64,000 nucleotides of DNA from Deltaproteobacteria bacterium (GTDB taxonomy: Bacteria > Desulfobacterota > Desulfarculia > Desulfarculales > Desulfarculaceae), in assembly GCA_020444205.1 (NCBI GenBank), contig JAHLLJ010000002.1:25860-89859 (forward strand), written 5' to 3'. The notes below the pieces were generated by a model. The model was given only the letters and a program-made list of their open reading frames with translations. It was not told the origin of the DNA and did no database searches. Shown here piece by piece: positions 32,730 through 50,430 of the stretch; the first letter of the stretch is position 1, and each line of letters opens with the position of its first letter. Position numbers and translations under genes: made by a program.

Positions 32730-33514
32730 GCGGCAAACTTTTCATCGTGGGGCTGGGCCCCGGCGGCCAGGAGCACATGACCTTGCGGGCCAGACAGGCC
32801 CTGCAAGAATCCGAGGTGGTGGTGGGCTATAAAACCTACCTGCGTCACATCCAGGAACTGGTCAAGGACAAGGAAGTCCTGGCCAGCGGCATGACCAAGG
32901 AAATGGATCGCGCCTGGACCGCCATTCAAGCAGCCAGGCAGGGTAGAGTAACCGCCCTGGTCTCCGGTGGCGACCCTGGCATCTACGCCATGGCTCCGGT
33001 GGTGTTTGAACTCCTGCATGACAAGGGCATAGTCCCCGGCCCGGACGGGCTTGCAGTGGAGGTTGTCCCCGGCGTACCAGCCGTGGCTGCGGCTGGAGCC
33101 TTCTTGGGCGCGCCCCTGTCCCACGACTTTGCCTGCATTAGCCTCAGCGATCGCCTTACCCCTTGGGAAGTGATCGAGAAACGCCTGCTGGCCGCTGCGG
33201 GAGCGGACTTTGTCATCGCTCTTTACAACCCCAAGAGCAAGGGGCGTGACTGGCAGCTAGGCCGGGCCCTGGAGATCATAGCCGGGCACCGCGCAGCGCA
33301 AACCCCGGTGGGAGTGGTGCGGGCGGCCATGCGCGCCGACCAGAGTGTGCGGTTATGCACCTTGGCCACCGCAGCCTCCGCGCCGGTGGACATGGCCACC
33401 ATCCTCATTATCGGCAACAGCAACAGCTTCACTTTCCAAGATGTCATGGTCACTCCCCGGGGATACCTGGCCAAGTATGGCTCCCCAGGGGGGGAGGAGG
33501 TCGGCGATGAGTAA
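32726..33514 (+). CDS. cbiH: precorrin-3B/cobalt-factor III C17-methyltransferase
   Basis: LFIVGLGPGGQEHMTLRARQALQESEVVVGYKTYL, VSGGDPGIYAMAPVV, LYNPKSKGR. Confidence 0.93.
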   Translation: MSGKLFIVGLGPGGQEHMTLRARQALQESEVVVGYKTYLRHIQELVKDKEVLASGMTKEMDRAWTAIQAARQGRVTALVSGGDPGIYAMAPVVFELLHDKGIVPGPDGLAVEVVPGVPAVAAAGAFLGAPLSHDFACISLSDRLTPWEVIEKRLLAAAGADFVIALYNPKSKGRDWQLGRALEIIAGHRAAQTPVGVVRAAMRADQSVRLCTLATAASAPVDMATILIIGNSNSFTFQDVMVTPRGYLAKYGSPGGEEVGDE

Positions 33515-34412
33515 AACAGCCATCGTCCTGGCGGCCTTTGGGGTCAGCCTGCCCGAGGCCCTGCCCGGCATCACTAACGTTGTCCAGAGGGTGCGCCAGT
33601 CTTTTGCTTGCCCGGTGGAGGTCTGCTTCACCTCCAATATCGTGCGCGGCATGTGGCAGAAGCGCTTGGCCGATCCGCAATGGGTAAAGGACAATCATCA
33701 CACTCCGGACTATGTGCGCCGCATCAAGGGCCCCCTGGCCACCATAGCCGCCCTTCAGGACAGCGGGCATAAAACCCAGATCATCCAACCCTTGCATGTG
33801 TACGCGGGCGAGGAGTACCACGACCTGCGCAACTTTGTGGCCGCTTTGGCCAGTATAGAGACCATCAAGCCCAAATGGCGTCCTTTCCAAAAAGTGATGC
33901 TGGGGAGGCCCGCCTTAGGTGAGCCCGGGGTAAAGCACCCCTATCTACATGACATCGAGCGGGCGGCACAGGCTCTGGACGGTGATGTGCAAGAGGCCCG
34001 CGAGATGGGCGCGGCCTTGGTTTACGTAGGCCACGGCAACCATGTTTTTTCCACCGGCGTTTATCACGAAATGCAAATGATGTTGCAACAACGGCACCCT
34101 GATGTGGCCATAGAGATCGGCGCGGTTGAAGGCATGTTCGGCGTGGACTACGTGGCCGGCCGCCTTAGCGACTGGGGGGTAATGCGGGTATTGCTCAAGC
34201 CCCTCATGCTGGTGGCGGGGGTGCATGCCCGTGATGATATGGCCGGTGGTGCAAAAGACTCTTGGCGCTCGGTACTGGCTCAAATGGGCTTTAGAGTCGA
34301 ATGCCGCTTACAAGGCTTGGGTGAGATCGACGCCTGGGCCGGCATCTATGTGCAAAACATCAATGAATGCGCCGCCGAGGCGGGCATAGAACTGGAATGC
34401 GAGGCGGCATAA
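33507..34412 (+). CDS. cbiK: sirohydrochlorin cobaltochelatase, CbiK type
   Basis: KTAIVLAAFGVSLPEA, QPLHVYAGEEYHDL, LVYVGHGNHVFSTGVYHEM; start set to ATG 33507. Confidence 0.9.
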   Translation: MSKTAIVLAAFGVSLPEALPGITNVVQRVRQSFACPVEVCFTSNIVRGMWQKRLADPQWVKDNHHTPDYVRRIKGPLATIAALQDSGHKTQIIQPLHVYAGEEYHDLRNFVAALASIETIKPKWRPFQKVMLGRPALGEPGVKHPYLHDIERAAQALDGDVQEAREMGAALVYVGHGNHVFSTGVYHEMQMMLQQRHPDVAIEIGAVEGMFGVDYVAGRLSDWGVMRVLLKPLMLVAGVHARDDMAGGAKDSWRSVLAQMGFRVECRLQGLGEIDAWAGIYVQNINECAAEAGIELECEAA

Positions 34413-34439
34413 CTTAGGGAAAAAATCAGGGCAAGCGCG

Positions 34440-34600
34440 CATCGGCGCTTGATCGGGAATCCCGTGAAAACCGGGAGCGGACCCGCCGCTGTAACCGGGG
34501 ACGAAAGCCGCGAAAATGCCACTGGCCTTTCAGGTCGGGAAGGCGCGGTGACTAGGATGATCCGGAAGCCAGAATACCGAACTGCCCTGACATCATCGGC
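34440..34600 (+). promoter_or_regulatory. cobalamin riboswitch (RS3); boundaries approximate
   Basis: cgggaatcccgtgaaaaccgggagcggacccgccgctgtaaccggggacgaaagccg...gccactgg...cgggaaggcgcgg...gaagccagaatacc. Confidence 0.92.
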
Positions 34601-34660
34601 GCATCCCGTGGAGTGGATGTGAGCCGGTAAAGAGTCTTAAGCGCGTAATGCGGGAAATCG

Positions 34661-34694
34661 CCGGACTCTCCCACGGGAGTCCGGTTAATTTTTG
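34661..34694 (+). terminator. intrinsic terminator following RS3 (attenuator)
   Basis: ccggactc-tcccacgg-gagtccgg-ttaattttt. Confidence 0.75.
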
Positions 34695-34705
34695 AGGACG
34701 CTTGC

Positions 34706-35554
34706 ATGAGCACGGCGGTAATCGAGATACGAGGCCTGACCAAGTCCTACGGCAAGACCAGGGCGCTGCAAGGGTTGGACCTGACAGTGGAGCGGGGCGA
34801 GATATTCGGTTTCCTGGGGCCAAACGGCGCAGGCAAGACCACTACTTGTCGTGTCTTGACCACCTTGACCAAGCCAACCCTGGGAAAGGCGTCGGTGTCC
34901 GGCTTCGACGTGGTGCGTCAGCCGGTGCAAGCCAAGAGTGGCATGGGCGTGGTGGCCCAGCACACCAATGTGGACGGTGAGCTGAGCGTCTACGCCAACC
35001 TGAGACTGCACGGCCTGTTGCACCACATGCCCTCGGCCCTCAGAGAAAAACGCATAGACGAGTTGCTCGAGTTTGTGGGCCTGACCGACCGCCAGGGCGA
35101 TTTGGTGCGCCGTCTTTCCGGCGGACTCAAACGACGGCTGATGATCGCCCGGGCCCTGCTGCATGAACCCAAGGTGTTGTTTTTGGACGAGCCCACCGTG
35201 GGCCTCGACGCCCAGACCCGCCGCCGCATTTGGGACCTTATTCGACGTAGTCATCAAGCGGGAGTCACCATTATGCTCACCACCCATTACATCGAAGAAG
35301 CCGAATCCCTCTGTCACCGGGTGGGCATCATTGACAACGGCAAGCTGATTGCCCTGGACACTCCGGCCAGCCTATTGGCCAGCACCGGCAGCCACGTGGT
35401 GGAGGAGGTGGACGGCAGCGGGCGATGTTGCTTTTTCGATAGCCGTGAAAAGGCTTCGGCGCATGCGGCACGCACCTCGGCCACGGTGATAATCCGCCGG
35501 GCCAACCTGGAGGACGTTTTTATTCGCCTCACCGGGCGGAGGGTTCGGCCGTGA
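34706..35554 (+). CDS. ABC-2 type transporter ATP-binding protein
   Basis: FLGPNGAGKTTTCRVLTTL Walker A, RLSGGLKRRLMIARALLHEPKVLFLDEPTVGLD. Confidence 0.92.
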   Translation: MSTAVIEIRGLTKSYGKTRALQGLDLTVERGEIFGFLGPNGAGKTTTCRVLTTLTKPTLGKASVSGFDVVRQPVQAKSGMGVVAQHTNVDGELSVYANLRLHGLLHHMPSALREKRIDELLEFVGLTDRQGDLVRRLSGGLKRRLMIARALLHEPKVLFLDEPTVGLDAQTRRRIWDLIRRSHQAGVTIMLTTHYIEEAESLCHRVGIIDNGKLIALDTPASLLASTGSHVVEEVDGSGRCCFFDSREKASAHAARTSATVIIRRANLEDVFIRLTGRRVRP

Positions 35555-36285
35555 GGGGGGTGTGGCCGATCTTTTACCGGGAGCTGTTGATTCTGCGCAG
35601 TCGCCTGTGGCGGCAGTTGGCTAATTACGCGGTCAGTCCCTTGCTCTACATCATCGCCTTCGGCTGGGGCATGGGTAGAGGGGTGACCATGGAAGGTGTC
35701 GAGTATCTGGCATACATGCTGCCGGGGCTCATGGCCCTGTCTTCCATGAGCCGCTCCTTCGGCATCTCTTCGGAGATAAACATTGCCCGTTTTTATTGGC
35801 ACACCTTTGAGGAGTTTCAGACTTCACCCATATCCCCAGCCGCTATCGCCTTGGGCGAGGTATTGGGCGGCATGGTGCGCGGTTTGCTCGGGGCGGTGGT
35901 GGTGGTCTGCTTGGCCCTGCTCAATGGGGTGAAGCTTCATTACGGCAGCGTGCTTTGGCTGGGCTTGCTCGTAAACTGTTTCATGTTCGCTTCGGCCGCG
36001 GTATGGGCGGCCATGGTGGTGCGTTCCCATGCTGATCAGTCCAATCTCACTGGGTTCATCATTACACCCATGTCCTTTTTGTGCGGCACCTTTTTCAGCT
36101 TGGACAAGCTGCCCGCATGGGCGGCGGCAGTCATCAACACCCTGCCGCTGACCCATGCCAGCCACTTCATACGAGCTTCGGCCCTGGGGCAAAGCCCGCC
36201 CTGGCTGTCCCTGGCGGTGATGGCTCTTTATGCGGCGGTATTTTTTGCCATGGCCGTGTGGCACGTGCGAAAGGCCAGCATCTGA
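35551..36285 (+). CDS. ABC-2 type transporter permease
   Basis: Hydrophobic ABC-2 membrane protein pattern; 4-bp overlap with ATPase gene. Confidence 0.85.
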   Translation: MRGVWPIFYRELLILRSRLWRQLANYAVSPLLYIIAFGWGMGRGVTMEGVEYLAYMLPGLMALSSMSRSFGISSEINIARFYWHTFEEFQTSPISPAAIALGEVLGGMVRGLLGAVVVVCLALLNGVKLHYGSVLWLGLLVNCFMFASAAVWAAMVVRSHADQSNLTGFIITPMSFLCGTFFSLDKLPAWAAAVINTLPLTHASHFIRASALGQSPPWLSLAVMALYAAVFFAMAVWHVRKASI

Positions 36286-38042
36286 TGGGCGCCGCGAGGA
36301 TCATTAAAAGGGCTTGGCTCTGCTTGTGCCTGCTGGTCCTGTTGGTTTCGGCCGGCCCATCCTTATCCGCCGGTTTGCCTGATGGCGACGCCGTGGAACT
36401 GGACTCCGAGATCATAAGTGAGCAAAAGGTGCGTACCGTGCAGGAGCTATTGAACCTGATACCAGGGGTCAAGGCTGGCAGCTCCTCAGTGAGCATCCGT
36501 GGAAACTCCTCGGTGGCCGTTTTCCTGGACGGCATGAGCCTGATCAACACCGCCAGCGCCCATCGTAGCGTGAAGTGGGACTTGGTGTCCCTGGAGGATA
36601 TCGCCAGCCTGAGGATCCTAAAAGGCGGCGGCGCGGTGGCCTATGGCGATAACTCCAGCGGTGGGGTGATTATCATAAAAACCAAAAGCGTTGACCGCAC
36701 CAAGGCCAACCTGTCTTTTGAAGCTGGAAACCAGAACTACTGGCGGGCGCGCGGCAACCTTACCCAAAAGACAGGTCCTTGGGGGCTAGCGCTTAACGGC
36801 GATTATTTCACCACCGACGGCTTTCGGGTGAACGGAGACAAGGAGCAGGGCAGGGCGGGAATCAAGCTCTCTTGGGCGCCGGAAGCCTGGATGCGTTGGG
36901 CCGGGCCGGATTCGGCGGCTCCAACCTTGGCCGCGGACTATGGCGAGACGCGCAGAGGCAGCCCTGGATTGCCAAAATACGCCACGCCTCACGCCCGCTC
37001 CCGGGACGAGGCCCTAGGCGTTTCACTCAACTTCAAGGCCTTGGGGTGGAAGAACGCCACCTCCTTCACCCATTTCCAAAACGACTATACCAACCCTGAC
37101 TCGGGCACCTATACCAAGTTGCGCAGCTGGAGCATAAAGGAGGACCTGCGCAAGGGCTTCAAGCTCCCCCTGCTGGGCCGGATCAGCACCGGCCTCATGC
37201 TCTCCCAGGCTCATGCCCAGGGCAACAAAGTGCAGGCGGTGGACGAGCAGAGCTACAGCCTCTTCGGCATTAAGAGCTACCGATTCAAGGCTGTGCCGGT
37301 GAGGTTGAACCTAGGCCTGCGGGCCAACCTGTATTCGGCTTTTGACACGGCGGTGAATCCCGAGGTAAAGGCCGTTTGGAAAAAGGGCATGCTCAGGCTG
37401 GAAGCGGGCTTTCAGATGACCAACAACACCCCCACCTTCCGTCAGCGTTTTTATGAAACCTCCAGCACCAAACCAAATCCCGGCTTGGGCATGGAGTACG
37501 GCACCAACTACAGCTTCGGGGCCAGTTTTAGACCGATTGATTGGTTTATGGTATCGGCAACCGTCTTTTACAACCAGATCAACGACCGCATCACCTACAT
37601 GCGCGGCAATGATGGAGTGGGTCAGTACCAGAACGTAGGTGAGACCCACCTCAGCGGGGTGGACGCCTTTATGTCCTTCACGCCTTTTGATTGGCTGGTG
37701 TTTCGGCCCTCATATACCTACCTGGAAGCCATCAACGACGACACCGGGCTGTGGCTGTCGGCCAAGCCGCGTCACAAGCTCAAGGCCAACCTGCAGCTGC
37801 GGCCCTGGCCGGGCCTGATGTTGGCTTGCCAAGGCACCTACAGTTCCATGGTCTACACCAACGCGGCCAACAGCACTACGGCGCCGTCCTATTTCACTTT
37901 GGACGCTTGGGGCGAGTACAGCCTGGGCCCGGCCCGCTGGTTCTTTCGCGTAGAGAACCTGATGGACGAGGACTACCTCTACGCCGACGGCTACCCCGCT
38001 CCGCCTCGCACCTGGTGGCTGGGCATGGGATGGGATTTCTAG
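36285..38042 (+). CDS. TonB-dependent outer-membrane receptor
   Basis: Signal peptide-like N-terminus, plug domain (VQELLNLIPGVKAGSSSVSIRGNSSVAVFLDGM), beta-barrel C-terminus ending WLGMGWDF; start set to ATG 36285. Confidence 0.88.
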   Translation: MGAARIIKRAWLCLCLLVLLVSAGPSLSAGLPDGDAVELDSEIISEQKVRTVQELLNLIPGVKAGSSSVSIRGNSSVAVFLDGMSLINTASAHRSVKWDLVSLEDIASLRILKGGGAVAYGDNSSGGVIIIKTKSVDRTKANLSFEAGNQNYWRARGNLTQKTGPWGLALNGDYFTTDGFRVNGDKEQGRAGIKLSWAPEAWMRWAGPDSAAPTLAADYGETRRGSPGLPKYATPHARSRDEALGVSLNFKALGWKNATSFTHFQNDYTNPDSGTYTKLRSWSIKEDLRKGFKLPLLGRISTGLMLSQAHAQGNKVQAVDEQSYSLFGIKSYRFKAVPVRLNLGLRANLYSAFDTAVNPEVKAVWKKGMLRLEAGFQMTNNTPTFRQRFYETSSTKPNPGLGMEYGTNYSFGASFRPIDWFMVSATVFYNQINDRITYMRGNDGVGQYQNVGETHLSGVDAFMSFTPFDWLVFRPSYTYLEAINDDTGLWLSAKPRHKLKANLQLRPWPGLMLACQGTYSSMVYTNAANSTTAPSYFTLDAWGEYSLGPARWFFRVENLMDEDYLYADGYPAPPRTWWLGMGWDF

Positions 38043-38044
38043 TC

Positions 38045-39097
38045 ATGAGGCGCCGTAGACCGCCGATTATAAGGCACTTGGTGCTGTGGCTGACCACCGC
38101 CTGCAATCTCAATTGCGCCTATTGCTACCGCGGTGACCCCAGCAAAGTTCTGGCCCTGGACCGGGACATGGTGCGCCGCGCCCTTAGCTTGGCCGCGGCG
38201 GGCGGCGGACCCTTGCACGTGCAGATGGCCGGTGGTGAGCCCACCCTGGTGCCGGAGCTCATGGAAACCGTGGCCCGCGAAGTGCACCGCCTGGAGGTCC
38301 CTACCACCCTGGCGGTGCAGACCAATGGCGTGGCTCTGGACCATGCCATGGCCCGTCTATTCAAACGCTGGAGTATAGGAGTTGGGGTCAGCTTGGACGG
38401 GCCGCCCGAAGTGCAGGAACGCCTGCGAGGCCGGGCGCCAGAGGTCTGGCAAGGCTTGGAAGAGCTTAACCGGGCCGAGGTGGACTTTGGCGTTACCGCC
38501 GTGGTCTGCGCAGAAAACCTAATTGAGTTGCCCCGCTTGGCCATGCTGCTGGGGCACTGGACTCACGCGCGGGGCCTGGGCCTGGACCTTCTGGTACGCA
38601 GGGGCCGCGCCATGCAGGGCGGACCCAGCATGGCCGAGCCCGAAGCCCTTATCCGAGCCATGCAGGAGCTGGCCGGCGCGGTGGCCTGGATCAGCAGTCA
38701 GCGGCGCAGGCCCCTGGTGTTGCGCGAGCAGAAACGATTGCAAAACTTATTGCACCCCTTTTGCCAAGCTGCCTTGGGAGCCTCCCTGGCGGTTCATCCT
38801 GATGGAAGTTTGTATCCCTGTGGCCAGACCATGGGCGACGAGGACTGCGAGATGGGCACTTTGGACCGGCCCGACTTCACCCGCGCCGCCGCCCTGGCCG
38901 CTTATCGCCTGGAGCAAGATGATTGCGCCAGCTGTCCCTTGGAGGCGCGTTGCCCTGGCGAGTGCCCCAGCCGCCTTAAGTACAACGGTCCTCAGGGGCG
39001 GGTCCTGGCCTGCGCTTTGCTGCAAGGATTGACCAGGGCGGCGGGCTCTCCTTGGCATCCCCCCCGCCTCAAGGAGTACAGACATGCCGCAGCTTGA
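38045..39097 (+). CDS. radical SAM protein with SPASM-like C-terminal Cys cluster
   Basis: LTTACNLNCAYCYRG CxxxCxxC motif, MAGGEPTLVPEL, C-terminal CGQTMGDEDCEMGTL...CASCPLEARCPGECPSR; start set to ATG 38045. Confidence 0.88.
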   Translation: MRRRRPPIIRHLVLWLTTACNLNCAYCYRGDPSKVLALDRDMVRRALSLAAAGGGPLHVQMAGGEPTLVPELMETVAREVHRLEVPTTLAVQTNGVALDHAMARLFKRWSIGVGVSLDGPPEVQERLRGRAPEVWQGLEELNRAEVDFGVTAVVCAENLIELPRLAMLLGHWTHARGLGLDLLVRRGRAMQGGPSMAEPEALIRAMQELAGAVAWISSQRRRPLVLREQKRLQNLLHPFCQAALGASLAVHPDGSLYPCGQTMGDEDCEMGTLDRPDFTRAAALAAYRLEQDDCASCPLEARCPGECPSRLKYNGPQGRVLACALLQGLTRAAGSPWHPPRLKEYRHAAA

Positions 39098-42000
39098 TCT
39101 GGTCTACTTCAGCACCACCTCCAACGACCTGCCCAACCTTATCCAAGCAGCAAAAAGCCTGCGCGAGCAGGGCGTAAATATAGCACTCAGGGCCTTTACC
39201 AAACCTCAACTTTTGAGTGAGGAAGACAAGCGCAAGTTCGTGGCTAAGGCCCTGCAGGCCAATGCGGTGGTGGTCACCCTAATGGGAGGCGAGAGCTCCT
39301 GCCCGGTGTGGGACCAACTTCTCGTTGCTCTGGGTGAAGCGCGCCGAGCAGGAGATGCACCATATTTTCATGTGCAGCCCACCGGTGCCAACCAGGAGGC
39401 CTGGCAAGCAGCGGTGGATCATGCCGATGGCTTAGACGGCGGCTCCTGGCAAGACCTGAACGCCTATTACCGTCACGGCGGGCGGGGCAACGCTGAACAG
39501 CTCCTGCGCTTGCTGTGCAACGCGGCCACCGGGGCCTCTTTGCCCCTGCTTCCTCCAGAGGTGCCTCCCACCGAAGGGGTTTATCACCCTGACTGGCCGG
39601 GCAGCCCGCCCCTGGAGGACTACCTGGCCTCTTTGGACCCGGCCAAGCCGCTCATCGGCATCTGGTTCTATCAGAACCTGTGGGTCAACAGAGCGGTGAA
39701 ACACATCGACGCCCTCATCCACGAAGTGGAGGCCCAGGGCGGTGAGGCTCTGGCTGTGTTCCACTACCGCTTCATGGATCAGGTGGTGGGTAACCTGGGG
39801 GCGGACGAGGTGGCTGAGCGCTTTTTCCGCCGCGACGGCAAGACCATCATCGACGCCTTATTGAGCCCCATGATGTTCAGTCTGGGCATGGCCTCGGAAA
39901 AATATCATGGCATCCTGAAGCATCTGGACGTGCCGGTGATCCAGGCGGTGAGCACCATGCAACCGGTGGAGCAGTGGCGCGAAAGTATGCAGGGACTCAG
40001 CGCCATGGACGTGACCATGTCCCTGGCCCAGCCCGAGTTCGACGGGAATTTGATCTCCGCGCCGGTGGCCTCTAAACAAGAAACCAGGCGCGATCCTATT
40101 AGCGGAGCGGCCCTGGCCGAGTACCTGCCCATCCCCGACCGGGTGGCCCAGGCGGTGTCCTTGACCTTGAACTGGGCCGCCCTGCGGCGCAAGCCCAATA
40201 GCGAAAAGCGGGTGGCTATCGTCTTTCACCACTATCCGCCTCGCAACGACCGCATCGGCTGCGCCGCGGGGTTGGACAGCTTTGCCAGTGTGCAGGACCT
40301 GCTACGGCGCATGGCCGAGGGAGGCTACCGCTTGGAGGACACCTTCCAAGGCGAGGACGTCTTGGCCCATGCCCTGCTGGCGGGCATGACCGGGGACCGT
40401 CGTTGGTTGCCTCCAGAGGAGATGGCCCGGCGGGCGGCGGCCACCGTGGGCAGCACCCATTTCCATCCCTGGCACGAGGCTCTGCCCGAGGCAGTGCAGG
40501 CCAAGATGGTGGCCGACTGGGGGTCCATGCCCGGCGAGCTGTTCACCCACGACGGCAAGCTGCTGGTCCCCGGCCTGGTGACCGGTAACGTGTTCATCTC
40601 CATGCAGCCGCCACGCGGCTTTTTGGAGCAGGCGGACAAGATTTACCACGACCCACATCTGTCGCCGCCCCATCACTATCTGGCCTTTTACCGCTGGATC
40701 AAATACGTGTTCAAAGCCGACGTGGTGCTGCACATCGGCAAACACGGCTCCCTGGAGTGGCTGCCCGGTAAGGGAACCGGCCTCAGCCGAGAGTGCTATC
40801 CCGAGCTGGCCATCATGGACCTGCCCAACGTTTACCCCTACATCATCAACGATCCGGGGGAAGGCACCCAGGCCAAGCGGCGCTCGGCCGCCTGCATCAT
40901 CGACCACATGACTCCGGTGATGGTCAACGCTGATCTGTACGAAGACCTGGCCCAGGTGGACAACCTGATCAAGGAGTACAACGAGGCCCGCGTGGAAGAT
41001 CCCGGCAAGCTGGAAATTCTACGCCCCATGCTCTGGAACGCGGTGGAAAAGGCCGATTTGCAGCGCGACCTGGAAATGGACCAGGAGCAGGCCTTGGCCG
41101 ACTTCGAGGCCTTCCTGGAGAAGCTGCACGCCTATTTAGGAGAGATGGCCGACACCCTGATCAACGATGGTTTGCACATCATGGGCCGTCCGCCCCAGGG
41201 CCAGGCCTTGACTGACTGCCTGGCCCAGCTCACCCGCCTGGCCAACGGCGAGGCTCCCTCCCTGCGCCAGGCGGTGCTGGCCGCCCAGGGTCATGACTAT
41301 GACTTCGTGCTGGAAAAGCGGGGACAAGTTCTCTCCCCAGGCGGTCTCACCGGAGGCCAGGTTATCGCTCAAGCTCAGGAGCAGTGTCTGGAACTGCTGC
41401 GCGCCATGGCCGAGAGGGACTACCAGCCCGAGGCTGCTGAAGCGGTTACCGAGACTGTCTTGGGCAAGAACCATCCTGCCGTGGCCGAGGCCCTGCGCTA
41501 CGCGGTCCAGGAGGTGTTACCCCGGCTATTGGCCATCACCGAGGAGACTGACGCTTGCCTGGCGGCTATGGATGGTCGCCATGTGGCTCCAGGTCCCTCC
41601 GGGGCACCCAGCCGAGGCCAGGTGGAGGTGCTGCCCACGGGGCGCAATTTTTTTTCCGTGGACCCCCAGAAGATACCCACCCCGGCTGCCTGGAAGGTGG
41701 GCAAGGCCCTGGGCGAAGCCATGCTGGAGCGGCATCTGAAGGACCACGGCCGCTATCCCGAGAACATCGGCTTCATCCTCTGGGCCAGCCCAACCATGCG
41801 CAACAAGGGCGACGACGTGGCCGAGATCCTTTGGCTCATGGGCCTCAAGCCGATGTGGCAGCAGGGTTCGGGCAATGTGCGCGGCCTGGCGGTGATACCT
41901 CTGAGCGAGTTGGGCCGCCCTCGTCTAGACGTCACTCCCCGTATGTCCGGCATCTTTCGCGATGCCTTCCCTACGGTGGTGGAGCTGTTGGACAAGGGCG

Positions 42001-42872
42001 TGCGCATGGCGGCCGCCCTTCAGGAAGACACGGCCATGAACTACCTACGAGCCCACGTGGTGAATGATTCGGCCTTGTACCGCCAAGAGGGATTGGACGA
42101 TGAACAGGCCTTTCGCCGTGCCACCCTGCGCCTGTTCGGCGCTCCGCCTGGGGCATATGGAGCGGGAGTGGCCGCCCTAATGGAGGCCAAGAACTGGAAA
42201 GACATACACGACATCGGCGACGTGTTCGTGGGCTGGTCCTCCTATGCCTACGGCCAGGGAGTGAACGGCATCAAACAGGAGAGCGCCTATCGCCGGTTGC
42301 TGGGGCGCATGGACGTGACCGTGAAGAACGAGGACAGCCGAGAGTACGACATGATGTCCTGCACGGACTTCTACTCCTATCACGGCGGGCTCATTGCCGC
42401 GGTGCGCTCGGTGCGCGGCCAGGCCCCGGAGTCATTCGCCGGTGACAGCTCTGACCCCGAGCGGGTCAAGGTGCGCACCGCCGCCGAGGAGGCCAAGCAT
42501 GTATTCCGCTCACGCCTGCTCAATCCCAAGTGGGTGCGCGGCCTGATGCGCCACGGATACAAGGGCGCGGGCGACGTTTCCAAGGCGGTGGACGTGGCCT
42601 TTGGCTGGGACGCCACCGCCGATGTGGTGGATGACTTCATGTACGAGCGCCTGGCCCAGCGGGTTGCCTTTGATCCCGAGGTGCGTCGCTGGATGGAGCA
42701 GGTAAACCCCTCCGCCCTACACAACATTGCCGAGAAGCTATTGGAAGCCATAGGTAGGGGAATGTGGCAGGCCGAGGAAGAGACTCACCAGAGGCTTCTG
42801 GATCTGTATCTGCAAACCGAGGGAGAGGTGGAGCAGGCCATGGACCCGGAGCAGGACGGAGCGAGGTCATGA
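39084..42872 (+). CDS. cobN: CobN-type chelatase large subunit (CobN/ChlH family)
   Basis: HIGKHGSLEWLPGKGTGLSRECYPELAIMDLPNVYPYIINDPGEGTQAKRRSAACIIDHMTPVM, TPRMSGIFRDAFPTVVELLD. Confidence 0.93.
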   Translation: MPQLDLVYFSTTSNDLPNLIQAAKSLREQGVNIALRAFTKPQLLSEEDKRKFVAKALQANAVVVTLMGGESSCPVWDQLLVALGEARRAGDAPYFHVQPTGANQEAWQAAVDHADGLDGGSWQDLNAYYRHGGRGNAEQLLRLLCNAATGASLPLLPPEVPPTEGVYHPDWPGSPPLEDYLASLDPAKPLIGIWFYQNLWVNRAVKHIDALIHEVEAQGGEALAVFHYRFMDQVVGNLGADEVAERFFRRDGKTIIDALLSPMMFSLGMASEKYHGILKHLDVPVIQAVSTMQPVEQWRESMQGLSAMDVTMSLAQPEFDGNLISAPVASKQETRRDPISGAALAEYLPIPDRVAQAVSLTLNWAALRRKPNSEKRVAIVFHHYPPRNDRIGCAAGLDSFASVQDLLRRMAEGGYRLEDTFQGEDVLAHALLAGMTGDRRWLPPEEMARRAAATVGSTHFHPWHEALPEAVQAKMVADWGSMPGELFTHDGKLLVPGLVTGNVFISMQPPRGFLEQADKIYHDPHLSPPHHYLAFYRWIKYVFKADVVLHIGKHGSLEWLPGKGTGLSRECYPELAIMDLPNVYPYIINDPGEGTQAKRRSAACIIDHMTPVMVNADLYEDLAQVDNLIKEYNEARVEDPGKLEILRPMLWNAVEKADLQRDLEMDQEQALADFEAFLEKLHAYLGEMADTLINDGLHIMGRPPQGQALTDCLAQLTRLANGEAPSLRQAVLAAQGHDYDFVLEKRGQVLSPGGLTGGQVIAQAQEQCLELLRAMAERDYQPEAAEAVTETVLGKNHPAVAEALRYAVQEVLPRLLAITEETDACLAAMDGRHVAPGPSGAPSRGQVEVLPTGRNFFSVDPQKIPTPAAWKVGKALGEAMLERHLKDHGRYPENIGFILWASPTMRNKGDDVAEILWLMGLKPMWQQGSGNVRGLAVIPLSELGRPRLDVTPRMSGIFRDAFPTVVELLDKGVRMAAALQEDTAMNYLRAHVVNDSALYRQEGLDDEQAFRRATLRLFGAPPGAYGAGVAALMEAKNWKDIHDIGDVFVGWSSYAYGQGVNGIKQESAYRRLLGRMDVTVKNEDSREYDMMSCTDFYSYHGGLIAAVRSVRGQAPESFAGDSSDPERVKVRTAAEEAKHVFRSRLLNPKWVRGLMRHGYKGAGDVSKAVDVAFGWDATADVVDDFMYERLAQRVAFDPEVRRWMEQVNPSALHNIAEKLLEAIGRGMWQAEEETHQRLLDLYLQTEGEVEQAMDPEQDGARS

Positions 42873-43642
42873 ATCCGCTTACACCGTGGGTTGGTTATCT
42901 GTTTCAGGCGGGAACCCTGCTGTATCTGCTGGCCGCGTTGAGCGCCCGGCCCCGTCTAACCCGTCTGTGCCTTGGGACCCTGGGAGCGGCCATGGTTGCC
43001 AATTTGGCTTCCATGGGGCTGAAGCTTTACTTGTCCTGGCCCATGCAATCGCCCTTTCAGGAGCCTTTTTGGTTGCCTGTGGCCGTAGCCGGACTTGCTC
43101 TGGGCTCCTTTGCCAAGGGGCGGCCTTCCCTGGGGCGGGGTCTGGTGGTGGTCACCGCCACCCTGGCCCTGATCGCCGCCCTGTTCCCCAAGGATTTCTA
43201 TTTGCCTTTTCCACGCTCGAACACCATTGTGGCCCACATCTTTTTGCCCATGAGCGCCATAGGCAAGGCCTGTTTTTACGCGGCCGGGACGGCGGCGGTG
43301 ATGTACCTGTCCCATTGGAAGGAGACCACTGAGCTGGACCGTGGGCGCCCCCTGTTCGGCCGCCTCATCGTGTGGGGCTTCGTCATCTTCACCCTCAGCC
43401 TGTTCTTGGCCGAGATCTGGTCTTACCTGGGTTGGGCCAGCCCGGTTATCTGGAACAACGCCACCATGACCTCCACCATGGCGGTGTGGTTTTATTACGG
43501 CTGCTTTTTACACCTGTACTTGTTGCGCGCCTGGAGCGCCCGGCGCCGGGCTTGGTTCGCGGTGGCTGGGGTGCCTCTGCTCATCGTCTTTACCCTGCTT
43601 CCCGAGACCGGCGGCTTTCAATGGCCGGAGTGGTGGCTATGA
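42869..43642 (+). CDS. CcsA/ResC-like cytochrome c assembly-family membrane protein (divergent)
   Basis: Multi-TM; AEIWSYLGWASPVIWNNATMTSTMAVWFYYGCFLHLYL resembles the CcsA WWD region; start set to ATG 42869. Confidence 0.7.
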   Translation: MNPLTPWVGYLFQAGTLLYLLAALSARPRLTRLCLGTLGAAMVANLASMGLKLYLSWPMQSPFQEPFWLPVAVAGLALGSFAKGRPSLGRGLVVVTATLALIAALFPKDFYLPFPRSNTIVAHIFLPMSAIGKACFYAAGTAAVMYLSHWKETTELDRGRPLFGRLIVWGFVIFTLSLFLAEIWSYLGWASPVIWNNATMTSTMAVWFYYGCFLHLYLLRAWSARRRAWFAVAGVPLLIVFTLLPETGGFQWPEWWL

Positions 43643-44466
43643 ATATTTTGCGAGGACTGTGGCGATTTTTCGGCTCGGCGGCTCTCAGTGTTGTTTTGCT
43701 GCTGTCATTGGTGGTGGTGCTTTGCTGCGGCTACTATCTGTTCGAGGCCGCGCCCCAGGTGTACGAGCCTCTCAACCGCCTGCTGTTGTGGGACTGGTTG
43801 GCCTCTTACGGCATGGGTGAGCTGGGCAATGCCTGGTGGTTTTTTGCTTTCCTCATTCTACTGGGGTTGCTGGTGGCCAACACCATGGTGTGCACCTGGC
43901 AAAAAGTGGCAGTCCTGGTCCGCCGGGGGACCAAGGGCTCACGCCTGGATTTCATCCTGCGCTTCTCGCCGCACCTGATGCATCTGGCCTTCATAATCAT
44001 CCTGGCCTCCCACCTGGTCACCTATGTCTTTGGGCTCAACGTGCAAAACAACGTGGTGCTGCCGGGGCGGGAGATCACCATCCCCGGCTCAGACATCAAG
44101 CTCAAGCTCATGGGTATAAAGTCACTTTTTTATGAAGGCGACCGCCTGGCCTTTTATCGCAATCGGGCCCTCACCCAAGACATCACCCTTTCCCTGCGCC
44201 ACGGCCAGGGCGAGGCCACGGTCAGAAGCTTGGCCTTTAACAGCCCCATCTGGTACGGCGGCTACAGCATTCACTTGAAAAACTATTTTCCCCGCTCCAA
44301 AAGCGGTATGAAGCGGCGGCCTTATGCCAACCTGATCATCCGCCGCGACCCCGGTGTGAAGGCCTTCTTTTTTGGGACCGTGGTTTTTGCCATCGGCCTG
44401 TTGGCCTATTTATGGCAAGCCCTGCGGCAACATCGGCAACGCGCGGTACGAGAGGCGCAATTATGA
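43639..44466 (+). CDS. ResB-like cytochrome c biogenesis-family membrane protein
   Basis: WRFFGSAALSVVLLLSLVVV N-terminal TM, LANTMVCTWQ, LMHLAFIIILASHLVTYVFG, C-terminal TM; follows CcsA-like gene with 4-bp overlap. Confidence 0.7.
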   Translation: MNILRGLWRFFGSAALSVVLLLSLVVVLCCGYYLFEAAPQVYEPLNRLLLWDWLASYGMGELGNAWWFFAFLILLGLLVANTMVCTWQKVAVLVRRGTKGSRLDFILRFSPHLMHLAFIIILASHLVTYVFGLNVQNNVVLPGREITIPGSDIKLKLMGIKSLFYEGDRLAFYRNRALTQDITLSLRHGQGEATVRSLAFNSPIWYGGYSIHLKNYFPRSKSGMKRRPYANLIIRRDPGVKAFFFGTVVFAIGLLAYLWQALRQHRQRAVREAQL

Positions 44467-45530
44467 AAAAAAGCATCTTAGTGTTTTTGGCGCTACTAAT
44501 AATTAGCTTGGCGGCACCGTTGCCGCCCAGGGCGGCGTTCAGGGCCATCGGCCCATTCAGCGTGGAGAGTCACGAAGACGGCTCTTTCATAATCACCGAC
44601 GGTATCGGCAGGCGGATCTATCTGGTACCCAGGGGCAAGACGCCCCCGCCTGGAGTGCCCCCCCAAGAGGTGGTGCGCATTCCCGTAAAAAGCATAGCCA
44701 GCGATTCGGCGCGAGACACCTCCCTGCTGCTTGCCCTGGACGCCATTAACACGGTTAAGGCGGTTACCGGCAAGCCCCAGGACTGGACCATCCCCTATAT
44801 CCATCAAGGCTTGGTCCAGGGGAGCATTGTCTCCTTGGGTCAGAGCCATGGCCTGGATTACGAACAGCTGGCCAAGGTGAAGCCCGACGTGTTTTTCACC
44901 TGGGACGAGTCGCTGATTCCCATGATGGACGAGTTGGGCATTCCCACAGTCATCACCAACACTGACCTTGCCCGTGATCTGGATACTCAGATCGGCTTCG
45001 TCAAGTTCCTGGCCCCGTTTTTTGGCAGTCACCGCCAGGCCGATGATTACGTAGCCAAGGTTTACACCGCCCTGGACGGCATCAAGACCAAGACACAGCA
45101 AGCCGATAGTAAGCCCAAGGTTATTTGGGGAGATGTGTATTCCAAGCGGGTTTTGGTTGAACCGGGCAACTCCTGGGCCGCTCAGATCGTGCAAGCGGCG
45201 GGTGGGGATTATCTTTTCGCGGACGTTTCCGGCGACACCTGCTTGGAAATAGCCTTGGAGCGCTTCTTTTCCAGCGGAAATGAGGCTGAGGTGATGATTA
45301 CCTATCGCACACCCCGCCAAGGCATGGCCACCAAGGCCAGAATGAAAGCTACTAACCGTACCATAGCTGGTATCAAGCCCCTCAACAGCGGCAAGGTTTA
45401 TTACCCCCTGAAACACTACCGGCAGTCGGCCCAAAAGCTGGATGAAATACTGCTGGATTTGGCGGCAATCATTCACCCGGAGCTTTATCCGGGCCATCAA
45501 CTGCGGTATTTCGCCGAACTGCAGGAGTAA
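44463..45530 (+). CDS. ABC transporter periplasmic substrate-binding protein (FecB/BtuF-like)
   Basis: Signal peptide; LLLALDAINTVKAVTG..., DYEQLAKVKPDVFFTWDE; start set to ATG 44463. Confidence 0.85.
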   Translation: MKKSILVFLALLIISLAAPLPPRAAFRAIGPFSVESHEDGSFIITDGIGRRIYLVPRGKTPPPGVPPQEVVRIPVKSIASDSARDTSLLLALDAINTVKAVTGKPQDWTIPYIHQGLVQGSIVSLGQSHGLDYEQLAKVKPDVFFTWDESLIPMMDELGIPTVITNTDLARDLDTQIGFVKFLAPFFGSHRQADDYVAKVYTALDGIKTKTQQADSKPKVIWGDVYSKRVLVEPGNSWAAQIVQAAGGDYLFADVSGDTCLEIALERFFSSGNEAEVMITYRTPRQGMATKARMKATNRTIAGIKPLNSGKVYYPLKHYRQSAQKLDEILLDLAAIIHPELYPGHQLRYFAELQE

Positions 45531-45534
45531 TTGA

Positions 45535-46560
45535 GTGGACTCGGTAATGTCCCAAGGCCGCCGCAGGATCCTGGTCATACCGCTATTGGCCATGTCTGTG
45601 ATGGCGGTGTTTTGGGCCAGCCTAAACCTGGGCAGCGTGCCCTCCACCGCCGGGGAGGTGTGGCGCATACTGTGGAGCCAGGGGGAGCCTGGCTCCCTGA
45701 CCTTCATCGTGCAAAGCATCCGCTTGCCCCGGGCCCTGGCCGCCCTGGGCGGCGGAGCCATGCTGGCGGTGAGCGGCCTGCTGTTGCAGGTGTACTTCCG
45801 CAATCCCATCGTGGGCCCCTTCGTTCTGGGCATCTCCTCGGGGGCCACCCTGATGGTCTCGCTGGTGATGCTCACCTCAGTGGCGGTGGGCATGGTGGGG
45901 GTGATGCCATATCTCACCCCGGTGGCTGCTTTCCTGGGAGCCCTGGGGGCCATGTCCTTGGTGATGAGCATCGCGGCCAGGGTGAAACAGGGGGTGACCT
46001 TGCTCATCGCGGGCATCATGATCGGCTATCTGAGCAGCGCGGTGACCAGCCTGCTGATCACCTTTGCCGAGGCCGAGCGGATCAAGGGCTTCAACCTGTG
46101 GCAGCTGGGCAGCTTCAGCGGCTACACCTGGAACGAGTTGGCGGTGATGATGAGCGCGGGCTCTGTGCTGTTGGTCATCGTCTACGGCCTCAGCAAGCAG
46201 CTCAACGCCTTTTTGCTGGGGGAGAACTACGCCGCCACCATGGGGGTGCACACCCGCCGCTTCCGCCTGGCCCTGATCTTCACTTCCTGCGGGCTCTCGG
46301 CCCTGGTCACGGCCACGGCCGGGCCGGTGGCCTTTGTGGGCCTGGCTGTGCCCCACATGGCCCGCCTGGCCATGGGCACCTCGGACAACAAGCTGCTCAT
46401 CCCGGCCACCGCCCTGATCGGCGGCCTGGTGTGCGGCTTCTGCGACATCGTGGCCCGCCTGCTCTTCGCCCCGGTGGAGGCGCCGCTGAGCGCCATTACC
46501 TCTTTCTTCGGTGCGCCGGTGGTGATCATGCTGCTGCTCAAAAGGAGGGCCGCGCGATGA
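45535..46560 (+). CDS. FecCD/BtuC-type ABC transporter permease
   Basis: IRLPRALAALGGGAMLAVSGLLLQVYFRNPIVGPFVLGISSGATL; GPVAFVGLAVPHMARL. Confidence 0.93.
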   Translation: MDSVMSQGRRRILVIPLLAMSVMAVFWASLNLGSVPSTAGEVWRILWSQGEPGSLTFIVQSIRLPRALAALGGGAMLAVSGLLLQVYFRNPIVGPFVLGISSGATLMVSLVMLTSVAVGMVGVMPYLTPVAAFLGALGAMSLVMSIAARVKQGVTLLIAGIMIGYLSSAVTSLLITFAEAERIKGFNLWQLGSFSGYTWNELAVMMSAGSVLLVIVYGLSKQLNAFLLGENYAATMGVHTRRFRLALIFTSCGLSALVTATAGPVAFVGLAVPHMARLAMGTSDNKLLIPATALIGGLVCGFCDIVARLLFAPVEAPLSAITSFFGAPVVIMLLLKRRAAR

Positions 46561-47807
46561 GCGCCCATCCCGCCAAATCAGAGAACCTGCTGCGGGTGGA
46601 AAACCTGGCCGTGGGCTACGGCCGCCGCCCGGTGCTGACCGGGGTGAGCTTCAGCCTGCACTCGGGCCGCTTCCTCAGCCTGCTGGGCCCCAACGGCGCG
46701 GGCAAGACCACCTTGCTGCGCAGCATGGCCGGCCTGCTGCCGGTGCTGGGGGGCAGCATCCACATCGCGGGCCGCGAGCTGGGCAAGATAAGCCAGATCG
46801 AGCTGGCCCGCATGCAGGCGGTGGTGCTCACCGACCGCCTGAACCCCGGCCTGCTCACCGCCCACGAGGTGGTGTCCCTGGGCCGCCATCCCCACACCGG
46901 CTTTTTCGGCAAGCTGGGCCCGGAGGATCACCGGGCGGTGGAGCGGGCCCTGGCCATGGTGGGGGCCGAGGATCTGGCCCAGCGCTACTTCGAGCAGTTC
47001 AGTGACGGTGAGAAGCAAAAGGTGGTGCTGGCCCGGGCCCTGGCCCAGGAGCCCCGCCTGATCCTCTTGGACGAGCCCACGGTGCACCTGGACCTCAAGC
47101 ACCGTCTGGAGGTGATGTCCATCCTGCGCGGTCTGTGCCGTCAGATGAACATCGCGGTGGTGGCTTCCCTGCACGACGTGGACGTGGCCTCGCGGGTCTC
47201 GGACCAGGTGGCGCTGATCTCCGGGGGCGGCATGAGCGCCTTCGGCCCTCCGGAGGGCACCCTGGACGACCGCACCGTGGCCGAGCTGTACAACCTGCGC
47301 GGAGCCCGCTACGACAGCCGCCTGGGGGTCATGGAGCTCACCAACGGCAAGCACCTGGGCCCGGTTATGGTGGTGCCCGGCGGCGGGGCGGCCTGCGCCG
47401 CCCTGCGCCTGCTTCACAAGCGCGACTACGGCCTGCTGGTGGGAGTGGCTCATCAGGGGGACATGGACGCCCACGTGGCCGATGCCCTGGGAGCGGAGGT
47501 GGCCCTGGCCCCGGCCTTTGGCCACGCCACCGCCCAGGCCATGAACCAGTGCCGGGAGATGCTTTCGCGGGCGGTGGCCGTGGTGGACAGCGGCTTCCCC
47601 CTGGGGCCGGGCAACGTGGAGAACCTGGAGCTTATAAACCTGGCCCTGGAGCAGGGCAAGCCGGTGTTCAGCCTGCGGCCCGAGAGCGAGGCCGGGGTGA
47701 CCTGGCATGGCTTGGATGAGCGGGTGGTGCGCTGCTCCGACGAGATTGACCTGGCTGCCCGCCTGAGCGCCCACCAGCACCGGGCAGGGGACAAGGCCCA
47801 GGACTGA
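46557..47807 (+). CDS. FecE/BtuD-type ABC transporter ATP-binding protein with ~150-aa C-terminal extension
   Basis: LLGPNGAGKTTLLRSMAGLL, FSDGEKQKVVLARALAQEPRLILLDEPTVHLD; start set to ATG 46557. Confidence 0.9.
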   Translation: MSAHPAKSENLLRVENLAVGYGRRPVLTGVSFSLHSGRFLSLLGPNGAGKTTLLRSMAGLLPVLGGSIHIAGRELGKISQIELARMQAVVLTDRLNPGLLTAHEVVSLGRHPHTGFFGKLGPEDHRAVERALAMVGAEDLAQRYFEQFSDGEKQKVVLARALAQEPRLILLDEPTVHLDLKHRLEVMSILRGLCRQMNIAVVASLHDVDVASRVSDQVALISGGGMSAFGPPEGTLDDRTVAELYNLRGARYDSRLGVMELTNGKHLGPVMVVPGGGAACAALRLLHKRDYGLLVGVAHQGDMDAHVADALGAEVALAPAFGHATAQAMNQCREMLSRAVAVVDSGFPLGPGNVENLELINLALEQGKPVFSLRPESEAGVTWHGLDERVVRCSDEIDLAARLSAHQHRAGDKAQD

Positions 47808-47886: not shown

Positions 47887-49902
47887 CTACAGGAGGTTCA
47901 GGTCGATCTCCACGCCGGCGTAGACCCACAGGCCGGGGTCCAGCACCTCGTACTGGCTGGAGTAGCCCGGGGTCATGTTTCCGTAGACCGCCAGATCCTG
48001 ATCCAACAGGTTGTCGGCCTTTACCCGCAGCTTGAGCCAATTGGTGAGCTTGTAGGAGCCAGTGAAGTGCAGGTTGAAGTAATCGTCCAGGCCGCGCTCC
48101 CGCTCCAGCATGGTGGTGGCGTTGAGGCCTAGCTGCAAAGTGCCGTCATCATAATATATGCCGGGCACCATCTGCCATTTGGGGCCGGCCTGCTCGCGCT
48201 CGCCGTCTTCTTCCTCCCAGGGATCGGCCGCGTAACCGCCGAAGGCCAATTGCAGGTACTCATGCACCTGGGCGGTCAGCTTCCACTCCACGCCCGTGGT
48301 GCGGTACTTGTCCATGTTCTGGGCGTAGTAGCGGTCATCCTCTGGGTTTTTCACATAGCGGATCTTGTCGGTGTAGTCCATCAGGAAAGCGGCCAGGGTG
48401 CCGGTGAAGATGCCGTAGGATACCTTGTAGCCCAACTCATAGGTCCAGCCGTACTCGGGCTCCAAGTTGGGATTGCCCACCAAGGTGGCGGTTTCGGAGT
48501 AGAGCTGGTTAAAGGTGGGCACCCTAAAGGCTCGGCCCACATTGCCGTAAAAGGATTGCCGGTCGGTGAGCTTGTAGACCGCCTGGAACTGAGGCACAGG
48601 CTCGTAGTAGTTGTCGGAGTCTTCCTCGGTGCTGATGACACCCTGGCCACGGATACCCAAGGTGAGGATCAAGTCGCTGAAAAAGGTCTTTTCCGCCTGG
48701 ATGAACAGCGAGGGCAGGTGGCGGGTGTTGTCCAGGTCGATGGAATCGATGTAATAGCCCGAGGAACTGGAGCCCTTCACGTCCTGGCGAACCTCATCTT
48801 GCTGCTCAAAGATGTAGGTGCCGCCGTAGAGGAATAGGGTGTTCCACAGCATCGTGCTGTTCTGGGCGTCCAGACCGGTGGTGAAGCTTTTCTTTTCGTT
48901 ATCACGGCCCGGTTTGCCCGCGGCACCGTAGTAGTCATAGTCGGTGTCCATATAGTTATAGTTGAAAAAGCCGGTGGCCCGGAAGGCGCCCCGCTCATAG
49001 GTGGCGGTCAGGTAGTGGTGGTACACCTTTTCGTCCACCTCGTAGCTGCTGGTAGGCTTCTTGGTGTACTGGGCGTTGTAGCCGGTATTGGTGTAGTTGA
49101 ACATGTAGCTTATAACCACCGGGGTCCAGGGCTGAACCGCAATCATGGCCGAGTACTTCTGGGGCGCGTTCAGGCTGGTGTTGTAGGGGCTGCGAGTGCT
49201 GTAGTTGCGCTTGGCGTCGGTGATGTCGTCATAGCGCATGTAGCTGGCGCCCAGGAAGACATACTTGTTACGGTACCAAGCGTCGCCGTTGAAATAGTCG
49301 TTGGAGCCGCCCAGCAGGCGGCCGCCGATGGCGTCTTCACCGGGACGGCGGGTGCGCATGTTGACCACGCCGGTCATGGCCCGCGAACCGTACAGGGCAG
49401 AATTGGCCCCTTTTACCACCTCAATGCGTTCCAGAAAGGCCGAGGGGATCTGGTCCAAATCATAGCTGCCCGCCGTGGGTTCGATTATGGGAATGCCGTT
49501 AAGCATGATCTGCTCGCCGCCGCTGATGCCACGGATGCCGATTTCGCCGTTCATGCCTCCCTGGGTTATGCCGCCGGGCAGGGAAGATGAGAAGTTCATA
49601 CCCTCGGTGCGCTGCAGCACCTCATAGGCGTTGTCGCCGCCTTTTTTCTCGACATCCTGAGCGGTAATCACCGTGGTAAAGGAACCGGTGTCCAGATCTT
49701 CTGCCTGGTAGCGCTTGGCCGTTACGTTCAGGGTATCCATGACCACCTTAGCCTGAGCGCTTTGGGCTTTGGCCTTGCTATCTTCGGCCTTGGCCTCGGC
49801 TTGGGTTTCAGCGCCGGTTACATTCTGCGCGGCCAGCGCGGGTGCCAAGGCCCACGTCAGTACGCAACCAGCGCACATTAAGATTCTCGCTATTTGCCGC
49901 AT
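47887..49902 (-). CDS. TonB-dependent receptor, BtuB-like
   Basis: Signal peptide, plug (GEIGIRGISGGEQIMLNGIPIIEP; LERIEVVKGANSALYGSRAMTGVVNMRTR), barrel; preceded by a cobalamin riboswitch; start set to ATG 49902. Confidence 0.9.
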   Translation of the reverse strand: MRQIARILMCAGCVLTWALAPALAAQNVTGAETQAEAKAEDSKAKAQSAQAKVVMDTLNVTAKRYQAEDLDTGSFTTVITAQDVEKKGGDNAYEVLQRTEGMNFSSSLPGGITQGGMNGEIGIRGISGGEQIMLNGIPIIEPTAGSYDLDQIPSAFLERIEVVKGANSALYGSRAMTGVVNMRTRRPGEDAIGGRLLGGSNDYFNGDAWYRNKYVFLGASYMRYDDITDAKRNYSTRSPYNTSLNAPQKYSAMIAVQPWTPVVISYMFNYTNTGYNAQYTKKPTSSYEVDEKVYHHYLTATYERGAFRATGFFNYNYMDTDYDYYGAAGKPGRDNEKKSFTTGLDAQNSTMLWNTLFLYGGTYIFEQQDEVRQDVKGSSSSGYYIDSIDLDNTRHLPSLFIQAEKTFFSDLILTLGIRGQGVISTEEDSDNYYEPVPQFQAVYKLTDRQSFYGNVGRAFRVPTFNQLYSETATLVGNPNLEPEYGWTYELGYKVSYGIFTGTLAAFLMDYTDKIRYVKNPEDDRYYAQNMDKYRTTGVEWKLTAQVHEYLQLAFGGYAADPWEEEDGEREQAGPKWQMVPGIYYDDGTLQLGLNATTMLERERGLDDYFNLHFTGSYKLTNWLKLRVKADNLLDQDLAVYGNMTPGYSSQYEVLDPGLWVYAGVEIDLNLL

Positions 49903-49967
49903 GCGTCTCTCCTCTTTCCTCTCAAAGATGTGTAAGGGCACACGTGGCCAATAGGTGGCGGGTAAAC

Positions 49968-50009
49968 AAAAAACGCTCCGAGAATGCATAATCATGCAGT
50001 CTCGGAGCG
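49968..50009 (-). terminator. intrinsic terminator downstream of RS4 (attenuator, minus strand)
   Basis: Minus strand cgctccgaga...tctcggagcg followed by T-run. Confidence 0.8.
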
Positions 50010-50069
50010 CACCCAGTTTCTTTGCTCCCGCCACACCCCTTGCGCATGTCCACGTGCGCACCAGGGATT

Positions 50070-50235: not shown

Positions 50236-50430
50236 ATATGTAGGAAAATTTATAGCAAGACCATTGAGGAGTGTCAATCTGATTTGCCCGCATCAGAGCT
50301 GGTCATCGACGAATTTGCCTTGTAGATCAGCAATGATTCGCAGGTCAAGGCAGGACAGAAAAAAGAGAGCTTGCCGGATGGTCAGATACTACTTGTCTAA
50401 TATTTAAGCCAGGATTTTGGGCCGAAGACT

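Follow-up and report, generated by a model that had tools for sequence, protein, structure and literature searches.

Background

The substrate of the class I cobaltochelatase CobNST is hydrogenobyrinic acid a,c-diamide (PMC7689651), but CobN is also encoded in organisms in which its role has been left open. In haloarchaea with the early-cobalt pathway, CobN-ChlID has no assigned role, salvage being a suggestion (PMC8305020), and the role of the cobN-exbBD-tonB cluster of Geobacter lovleyi and of the cobN-bchHID clusters of Chlorobium has likewise been left unknown (PMC3403914, PMC8620254). A further CobN-like protein, HmuS, is found with a TonB receptor and an importer and removes iron from heme (PMC12583661). 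Here we describe a ten-gene operon containing cobN in a stretch of 64,000 nucleotides (the window) from a draft genome (82% complete, 5.3% contamination; contig label C317) of Desulfarculaceae, a family that includes Desulfocarbo. We hypothesize, at close to even chances, that the operon encodes a conserved, B12-repressed system for acquiring corrinoids and metalating them late, which occurs in sulfate-reducer-type bacteria and stands here beside a complete early-cobalt pathway.

Results and discussion

A conserved operon behind a cobalamin riboswitch

The operon and its leader comprise the following features, all on the + strand.

34418..34597, +, cobalamin (B12) riboswitch aptamer (Rfam RF00174, 100.4 bits; gathering threshold 31.5)
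34660..34685, +, intrinsic terminator (attenuator) between the aptamer and the first start codon, with an 11-pair stem and the tail TAATTTTTGA
34706..35554, +, ABC-2-type exporter ATPase, DrrA-like (PF00005, 108 bits; TIGR01188, 301 bits, slightly below cut-off)
35551..36285, +, ABC-2-type exporter permease (PF01061, 65 bits)
36285..38042, +, TonB-dependent outer-membrane receptor (PF07715 Plug; weak TIGR01783 and TIGR01779; hydrophobic N-terminal residues 6-24)
38045..39097, +, radical SAM/SPASM enzyme (PF04055, 60 bits; TIGR04085, 40.5 bits against a cut-off of 27)
39084..42872, +, CobN, class I cobaltochelatase large subunit (TIGR02257, 976 bits against a cut-off of 822)
42869..43642, +, CcsA-like membrane protein with a degenerate WWD heme-handling core, judged against the genome's own canonical CcsA (PF01578, 44.9 bits)
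43639..44466, +, short ResB-like membrane protein (PF05140, 29.3 bits; H112 and H115 invariant in 11 homologues)
44463..45530, +, BtuF-like periplasmic binding protein with a signal-like N terminus (PF01497, 64 bits)
45547..46560, +, BtuC-like importer permease (PF01032, 250 bits; best NCBIfam match BtuC NF003001, below cut-off)
46557..47807, +, BtuD-like importer ATPase with a C-terminal extension of about 150 residues (PF00005, 102 bits)

Cobalamin riboswitches are established sensors that make genes respond to B12 shortage. A first-pass annotation of this DNA had proposed a riboswitch and attenuator ahead of ten packed or overlapping plus-strand genes, and this layout is borne out by the RF00174 match, the terminator hairpin and the gene families; the region it drew holds the operon genes, but its start at 34440 falls 22 bases inside the aptamer. 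Two terminator-like sites were found against 0.4 expected from shuffled sequences, the leader folds at -47.5 kcal/mol (z = -3.0), and the intergenic distances between the ten genes range from -14 to +16 bases.

To ask how far the operon is kept as a unit, we considered 395 genomes of the phylum, using profiles of the ResB-like protein, the radical SAM enzyme and the amidase described below, and inspected the neighbourhoods. The radical SAM profile (matches at E<=1e-40) identified 24 of the 395 genomes as carriers, all of which have CobN, compared with 113 of all 395 (Fisher p=1e-14); the two genes lie <=5 kb apart in 18 of these 24. Conversely, the radical SAM enzyme is present in 12/14 genomes with the CcsA/ResB module and in 12/381 others (p=9e-15). 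These p-values ignore shared ancestry, but carriers come from many families and show many different gene orders. The block CcsA-ResB-BtuF-BtuC-BtuD recurs amid shuffled surroundings across about nine family codes, the pair being fixed to the three importer genes in >10 loci. Cobalamin riboswitches precede 11/16 radical SAM/CobN loci and, outside the window, 9/13 module loci, three of the other four being incomplete. The whole ten-gene order is retained in Desulfocarbo and in one further genome (G001); Dethiosulfatarculus has receptor, CobN, CcsA, ResB and BtuFCD together, with neither exporter nor radical SAM gene in the retrieved locus. Genome-wide co-occurrence and linkage rule out a chance neighbourhood, and the earlier proposal of a functional unit holds: the radical SAM enzyme, CcsA/ResB and CobN recur together in many families, repeatedly behind cobalamin riboswitches.

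CobN and its motor subunits

The operon's CobN (1262 aa) matches PF02514 continuously and contains neither a signal peptide nor a transmembrane segment. Among solved structures it scores 809 bits against CobN of Mycobacterium tuberculosis (7c6o), 492 against ChlH and 372 against HmuS. It carries the signatures GKHG, followed by LEW, and NDPGEGTQAKRR, which are common to its clade and to the solved CobN proteins; the other large CobN clade has GTHG and DNPPEG. In a tree of 40 proteins, CobN from the radical SAM genomes, except for three divergent second copies, form a supported clade of 23 rows, and 14 others, from genomes without the radical SAM enzyme, form a second clade.

The first-pass annotation overlooked a second riboswitch operon in the window, at 57280-62219, which provides the CobN partners.

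57280..57475, +, cobalamin riboswitch of the partner operon (RF00174, 110.4 bits)
57596..59089, +, nitrilase-superfamily (CN_hydrolase) amidase of double length (PF00795, 128 bits)
59102..61183, +, ChlD-like (AAA+ plus VWA) cobaltochelatase subunit (TIGR02442 putative cobaltochelatase, 801 bits against 779)
61191..62219, +, ChlI-like AAA+ motor subunit (TIGR02442, 487 bits, N-terminal half; TIGR02030, 423 bits, below its cut-off of 467)

Since this operon encodes both ChlD and ChlI, the window holds the motor subunits of CobN as well. ChlD/ChlI genes also adjoin the module or CobN at loci L042, L045, L049, L050, L115, L120, L121, L123, L127 and L131.

CobN might also run backwards and demetalate imported tetrapyrroles, taking cobalt out of corrinoids or, in the manner of HmuS, iron out of heme, with the exporter expelling the empty ring. 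HmuS, a CobN-like protein with the same kinds of transport partners, provides a precedent (PMC12583661), and the operon's CcsA and ResB homologues belong to a group that handles heme (PMC6299221). The window CobN, however, has the GKHG and CobN motifs rather than HFG(T/A)HG, lacks the Met-rich insertion and the membrane anchor, has ATPase partners, and scores far higher against the solved CobN than against HmuS. On motif, topology and partners we reject an HmuS-like heme de-chelatase; these features argue for cobalt handling on a corrin rather than iron removal from heme. As for cobalt, its removal from corrins without destruction of the ring is chemically very hard, and corrinoids without cobalt are known from purple sulfur bacteria cultured in its absence (PMC6771967, PMC5103170). 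We prefer insertion to extraction for both these reasons, and also because remodelling of an intact corrinoid could proceed with the metal in place. We infer that CobN inserts cobalt into a corrin, and regard reverse operation as unlikely.

A third CobN clade was observed beside or near the main CobN at L115:16593-19901, L127:2944-6666 and L122:4285-8151. Two of these three proteins have lost the catalytic His of GxHG (GTGG, GSEG), a loss which suggests inactive paralogues.

The CcsA/ResB-like pair

We aligned the CcsA-like protein with the canonical CcsA that this genome encodes separately, and with those of two relatives. The first periplasmic histidine (P-His1) is kept and the invariant H215 aligns with the canonical transmembrane His, but the core WGTYWSWDPKE is replaced by WASPVIWNNAT and the P-His2 region GLHSY is missing. 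In the ResB-like protein, in which H112 and H115 are invariant among the homologues compared, the large periplasmic region is missing. Profile searches of the PDB with the alignments of both proteins gave no match at E<=1, and a scan of genome contigs with the CcsA-like protein gave matches in two close relatives only.

Homology to System II (PF01578, PF05140) could mean that the pair serves the maturation of one particular c-type cytochrome and has only a loose relation to the corrin genes. Published work shows that the WWD core and both P-His residues are essential for cytochrome c synthesis (PMC6299221, PMC11322641), and because the WWD core, including the Asp present in the genome's own canonical CcsA, and P-His2 are lost, the pair is not expected to make cytochrome c. 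The separate canonical CcsA and the fixed association with BtuF-BtuC-BtuD speak against maturation as well, and we consider it the least probable of the explanations weighed here; on the residues, we reject cytochrome c maturation. The pair may instead form a heme-based conduit for electrons or a tetrapyrrole through a transmembrane heme site that may remain.

More distant CcsA/ResB pairs occur with TonB receptors and ExbBD/TonB at L051:609-9899, L053:3846-9716 and L052:4554-12883. The same loci encode fusions of Oxidored_molyb and tetrapyrrole-methylase domains with a signal-like N terminus; a methylase fold placed outside the cytoplasm would be without S-adenosylmethionine (SAM) and may be a tetrapyrrole binder, and the set is possibly a sister system.

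Transport genes, radical SAM enzyme and amidase

All families of a BtuFCD importer are matched (FecCD permease, Peripla_BP_2 and ABC ATPase), and the best NCBIfam match of the BtuD-like protein, over residues 11-347 and below cut-off, is the corrinoid ABC ATPase NF007082. CbiZ, the amidohydrolase of corrinoid salvage, adjoins CobN or the radical SAM gene in about half of the carriers (Pfam-confirmed in L044 and L047; elsewhere by profile, at >280 bits) and is encoded elsewhere in the window genome. Riboswitch, CbiZ and BtuFCD together point to a corrinoid as the substrate of the system.

The radical SAM enzyme has the motif CNLNCAYC (CX3CX2C) and a C-terminal Cys-rich SPASM region, with the Cys residues invariant among homologues. 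It falls below the cut-off of every named family compared, scoring 94 of 340 for PapB, 45.5 of 650 for AhbC and 38.8 of 515 for NirJ. Searches of the plasmid collection with this enzyme and with the CcsA-like protein found no match. The first-operon copy of the radical SAM gene in G001 is split between frames (L040:5929-6959), and a second, intact copy (L127:10441-11454) lies with CobN, ChlI, ChlD and the amidase behind a riboswitch of its own. At L126:3475-4359, an N-terminally extended and possibly periplasmic CbiK is encoded 5' of a TonB receptor, the radical SAM enzyme and CobN.

The combination of an exporter, an importer and a peptide-maturase-type radical SAM/SPASM enzyme (PapB being the best, if distant, family) in one operon raises the idea of a metallophore cycle, in which the radical SAM enzyme makes a cobalt-binding product that is exported by the ABC-2 proteins and returned through the TonB receptor and BtuFCD. 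There is, however, no precursor peptide gene in the operon and no intergenic room for one, the open reading frames of the leader encoding only 15-21 aa. ABC-2 genes accompany the module at L008, L040, L042, L048, L049, L050 and L131, but ABC-2 genes or the radical SAM gene are missing at L009, L041 and L045, where some contigs are short. The CbiZ neighbours, moreover, indicate corrinoids, and we judge such a cycle very improbable. The first-pass annotation had likewise envisaged export followed by re-import within a cobalt or tetrapyrrole acquisition and modification system: the acquisition and modification part fits, with the substrate narrowed to corrinoids by the CbiZ neighbours, while the export and re-import part is not upheld, given the lack of room for a precursor peptide and a Dethiosulfatarculus locus without exporter and radical SAM gene.

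The Glu-Lys-Cys triad of the amidase (E45, K118, C149) is invariant in 8 homologues. Its profile matched 18 genomes, all of which have CobN and 15 of which have the radical SAM enzyme, and its target is probably corrin side chains. Given that CobNST acts on an a,c-diamide, CbiZ and the amidase could move imported corrins toward the accepted state.

A model for corrinoid acquisition and late metalation

In the model that we favour, scarcity of adenosylcobalamin would let transcription run through the terminator. Corrinoids would then enter via the TonB receptors and BtuFCD, with the CcsA/ResB-like pair working alongside the latter. In the cytoplasm, CbiZ and the nitrilase-type amidase would trim side chains toward a partly amidated state that CobN accepts, the radical SAM enzyme may act on the ring or its side chains, and CobN, powered by ChlD/ChlI of the second operon, would load cobalt into corrins that carry no metal or the wrong one. 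Rings that neighbours have made without cobalt would in this way be put to use again. CbiD is present in 23/26 carriers tested, and such salvage would therefore add to synthesis and not replace it.

The same genes could be read as giving anaerobes a second route to cobalamin de novo, with late cobalt insertion and with the radical SAM enzyme standing in for an oxygen-dependent step. A B12-controlled CobN of the late-insertion type, together with its motor subunits, would fit, as would the frequency of CbiD, an enzyme of corrin ring synthesis, among the carriers. Yet the early, cobalt-dependent route is encoded in this genome too (CbiK, CbiD, CbiG, CbiH), and importers and CbiZ would be superfluous for synthesis; we find a second route distinctly improbable.

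Several points weigh against an acquisition and late-metalation system. The early-cobalt route with CbiK makes late insertion unnecessary for de novo synthesis in the host, some carriers lack one or more parts of the system, and seven genomes of the same genus are without this radical SAM enzyme, the five of them examined for the ResB-like protein and CobN lacking both. Moreover, any substrates proposed for the radical SAM enzyme, the amidase, the exporter and CcsA/ResB are candidates, and the enzyme activities invoked are predictions from genes and comparison. As regards the same-genus genomes, six of the seven (G004-G009) also lack CbiD, unlike the window genome (G000), so that most would be without de novo corrin synthesis. 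Although same-genus genomes lack the genes, we set aside a mis-binned contig: by tetranucleotide composition, the nearest sequences to the window are further contigs from its own genome or genus. Because composition gives no foreign signal, strain-level gain or loss is the likely explanation of the absences, and mis-binning from a close relative a less likely one.

A fuller version of the model, which is possible but rather doubtful as a whole, is an anaerobic rescue of metal-free or wrongly metalated corrins, in which a side-chain amidase and radical SAM chemistry of a new kind would prepare the ring, the B12-repressed CobN-ChlD-ChlI would insert cobalt, and a repurposed CcsA/ResB pair would carry electrons or a tetrapyrrole across the inner membrane for corrin uptake. 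If true, anoxic sediments would have a recycling economy for corrins without metal, the radical SAM enzyme and the amidase would represent a new class acting on corrins, and the CcsA/ResB fold would have a use unrelated to cytochromes.

Genomic surroundings

Upstream of the ten-gene operon lies an early-cobalt corrin cluster encoding CobB, CbiC, CbiL, CbiD, CbiET, CbiF, CbiG, CbiH and CbiK, preceded by tandem cobalamin riboswitches at 24687-24856 and 25517-25704; in total, the window has five cobalamin riboswitches (Rfam RF00174) in a span of 33 kb. On the other side, the operon has a divergent neighbour.

33507..34412, +, CbiK, early-cobalt sirohydrochlorin cobaltochelatase, last gene of the upstream cbi cluster (PF06180, 189 bits)
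47887..50061, -, BtuB-like TonB receptor, divergent neighbour of the ten-gene operon (PF00593, PF07715)
50059..50245, -, cobalamin riboswitch of the BtuB-like receptor gene (RF00174, 118.5 bits)

The BtuB-like receptor gene adjoins the operon also at L008, L009 and L040. Between the two corrin operons, two neighbouring open reading frames at 50492-51469 resemble a split transposase (a helix-turn-helix part, then an integrase-like part), and an operon at 51585-56987 encodes an NrfD/molybdopterin oxidoreductase with ferredoxin-type and chaperone-type subunits.

Comparison with known systems

The set shares with the class I cobaltochelatases CobNST and CobN-ChlID a CobN equivalog with its motifs, AAA+ and VWA motor subunits and a B12 context; it differs in occurring in anaerobes that have the early-cobalt pathway and CbiK, and in its linkage to the radical SAM enzyme, the amidase, CcsA/ResB and importers. 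The haloarchaeal CobN-ChlID is alike in placing a late chelatase beside an early-cobalt pathway, but the available part of that source does not mention a radical SAM enzyme, a nitrilase or CcsA/ResB beside it (PMC8305020). Similarly, the Geobacter lovleyi and Chlorobium clusters combine CobN of an anaerobe with TonB-type transport genes or BchI/BchD, and the accessible portions of those reports mention no radical SAM enzyme, CcsA/ResB or amidase (PMC3403914, PMC8620254). The HmuS/BtuS heme systems of Bacteroidota unite a CobN-family protein with a TonB receptor and an importer (PMC12583661, PMC6460266), but HmuS, unlike the window CobN, is membrane-anchored, carries HFG(T/A)HG together with a Met-rich insertion, and functions without ATPase partners. 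With BtuB/BtuFCD uptake and CbiZ remodelling the set has in common the receptor, the importer, the riboswitch and, in many carriers, CbiZ, to which it adds a chelatase, the radical SAM enzyme, the amidase, the ABC-2 exporter and CcsA/ResB. From System II CcsBA, a homologous membrane pair, the CcsA-like protein retains the P-His1 and transmembrane His positions, but its WWD core is degenerate and P-His2 is absent, and the ResB-like protein is without the large periplasmic region.

Our literature search for CobN with ResB found nothing, and for CobN with a radical SAM enzyme or a nitrilase it found, in the passages and abstracts covered, no description of this gene set; within the text so covered, the conserved set with radical SAM enzyme, amidase, CcsA/ResB and ABC-2 exporter appears to be undescribed. 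In the literature searched, neither the radical SAM enzyme, the amidase nor the modified cytochrome-assembly pair had an earlier link to B12. To the question of why early-cobalt anaerobes also keep a late-type CobN, raised by haloarchaea, Chlorobium and Geobacter (PMC8305020, PMC8620254, PMC3403914), the locus contributes a set of repeatedly conserved partners, a regulatory logic and testable substrates. We file the set with the B12-regulated corrinoid uptake and cobaltochelatase systems, as a new form.

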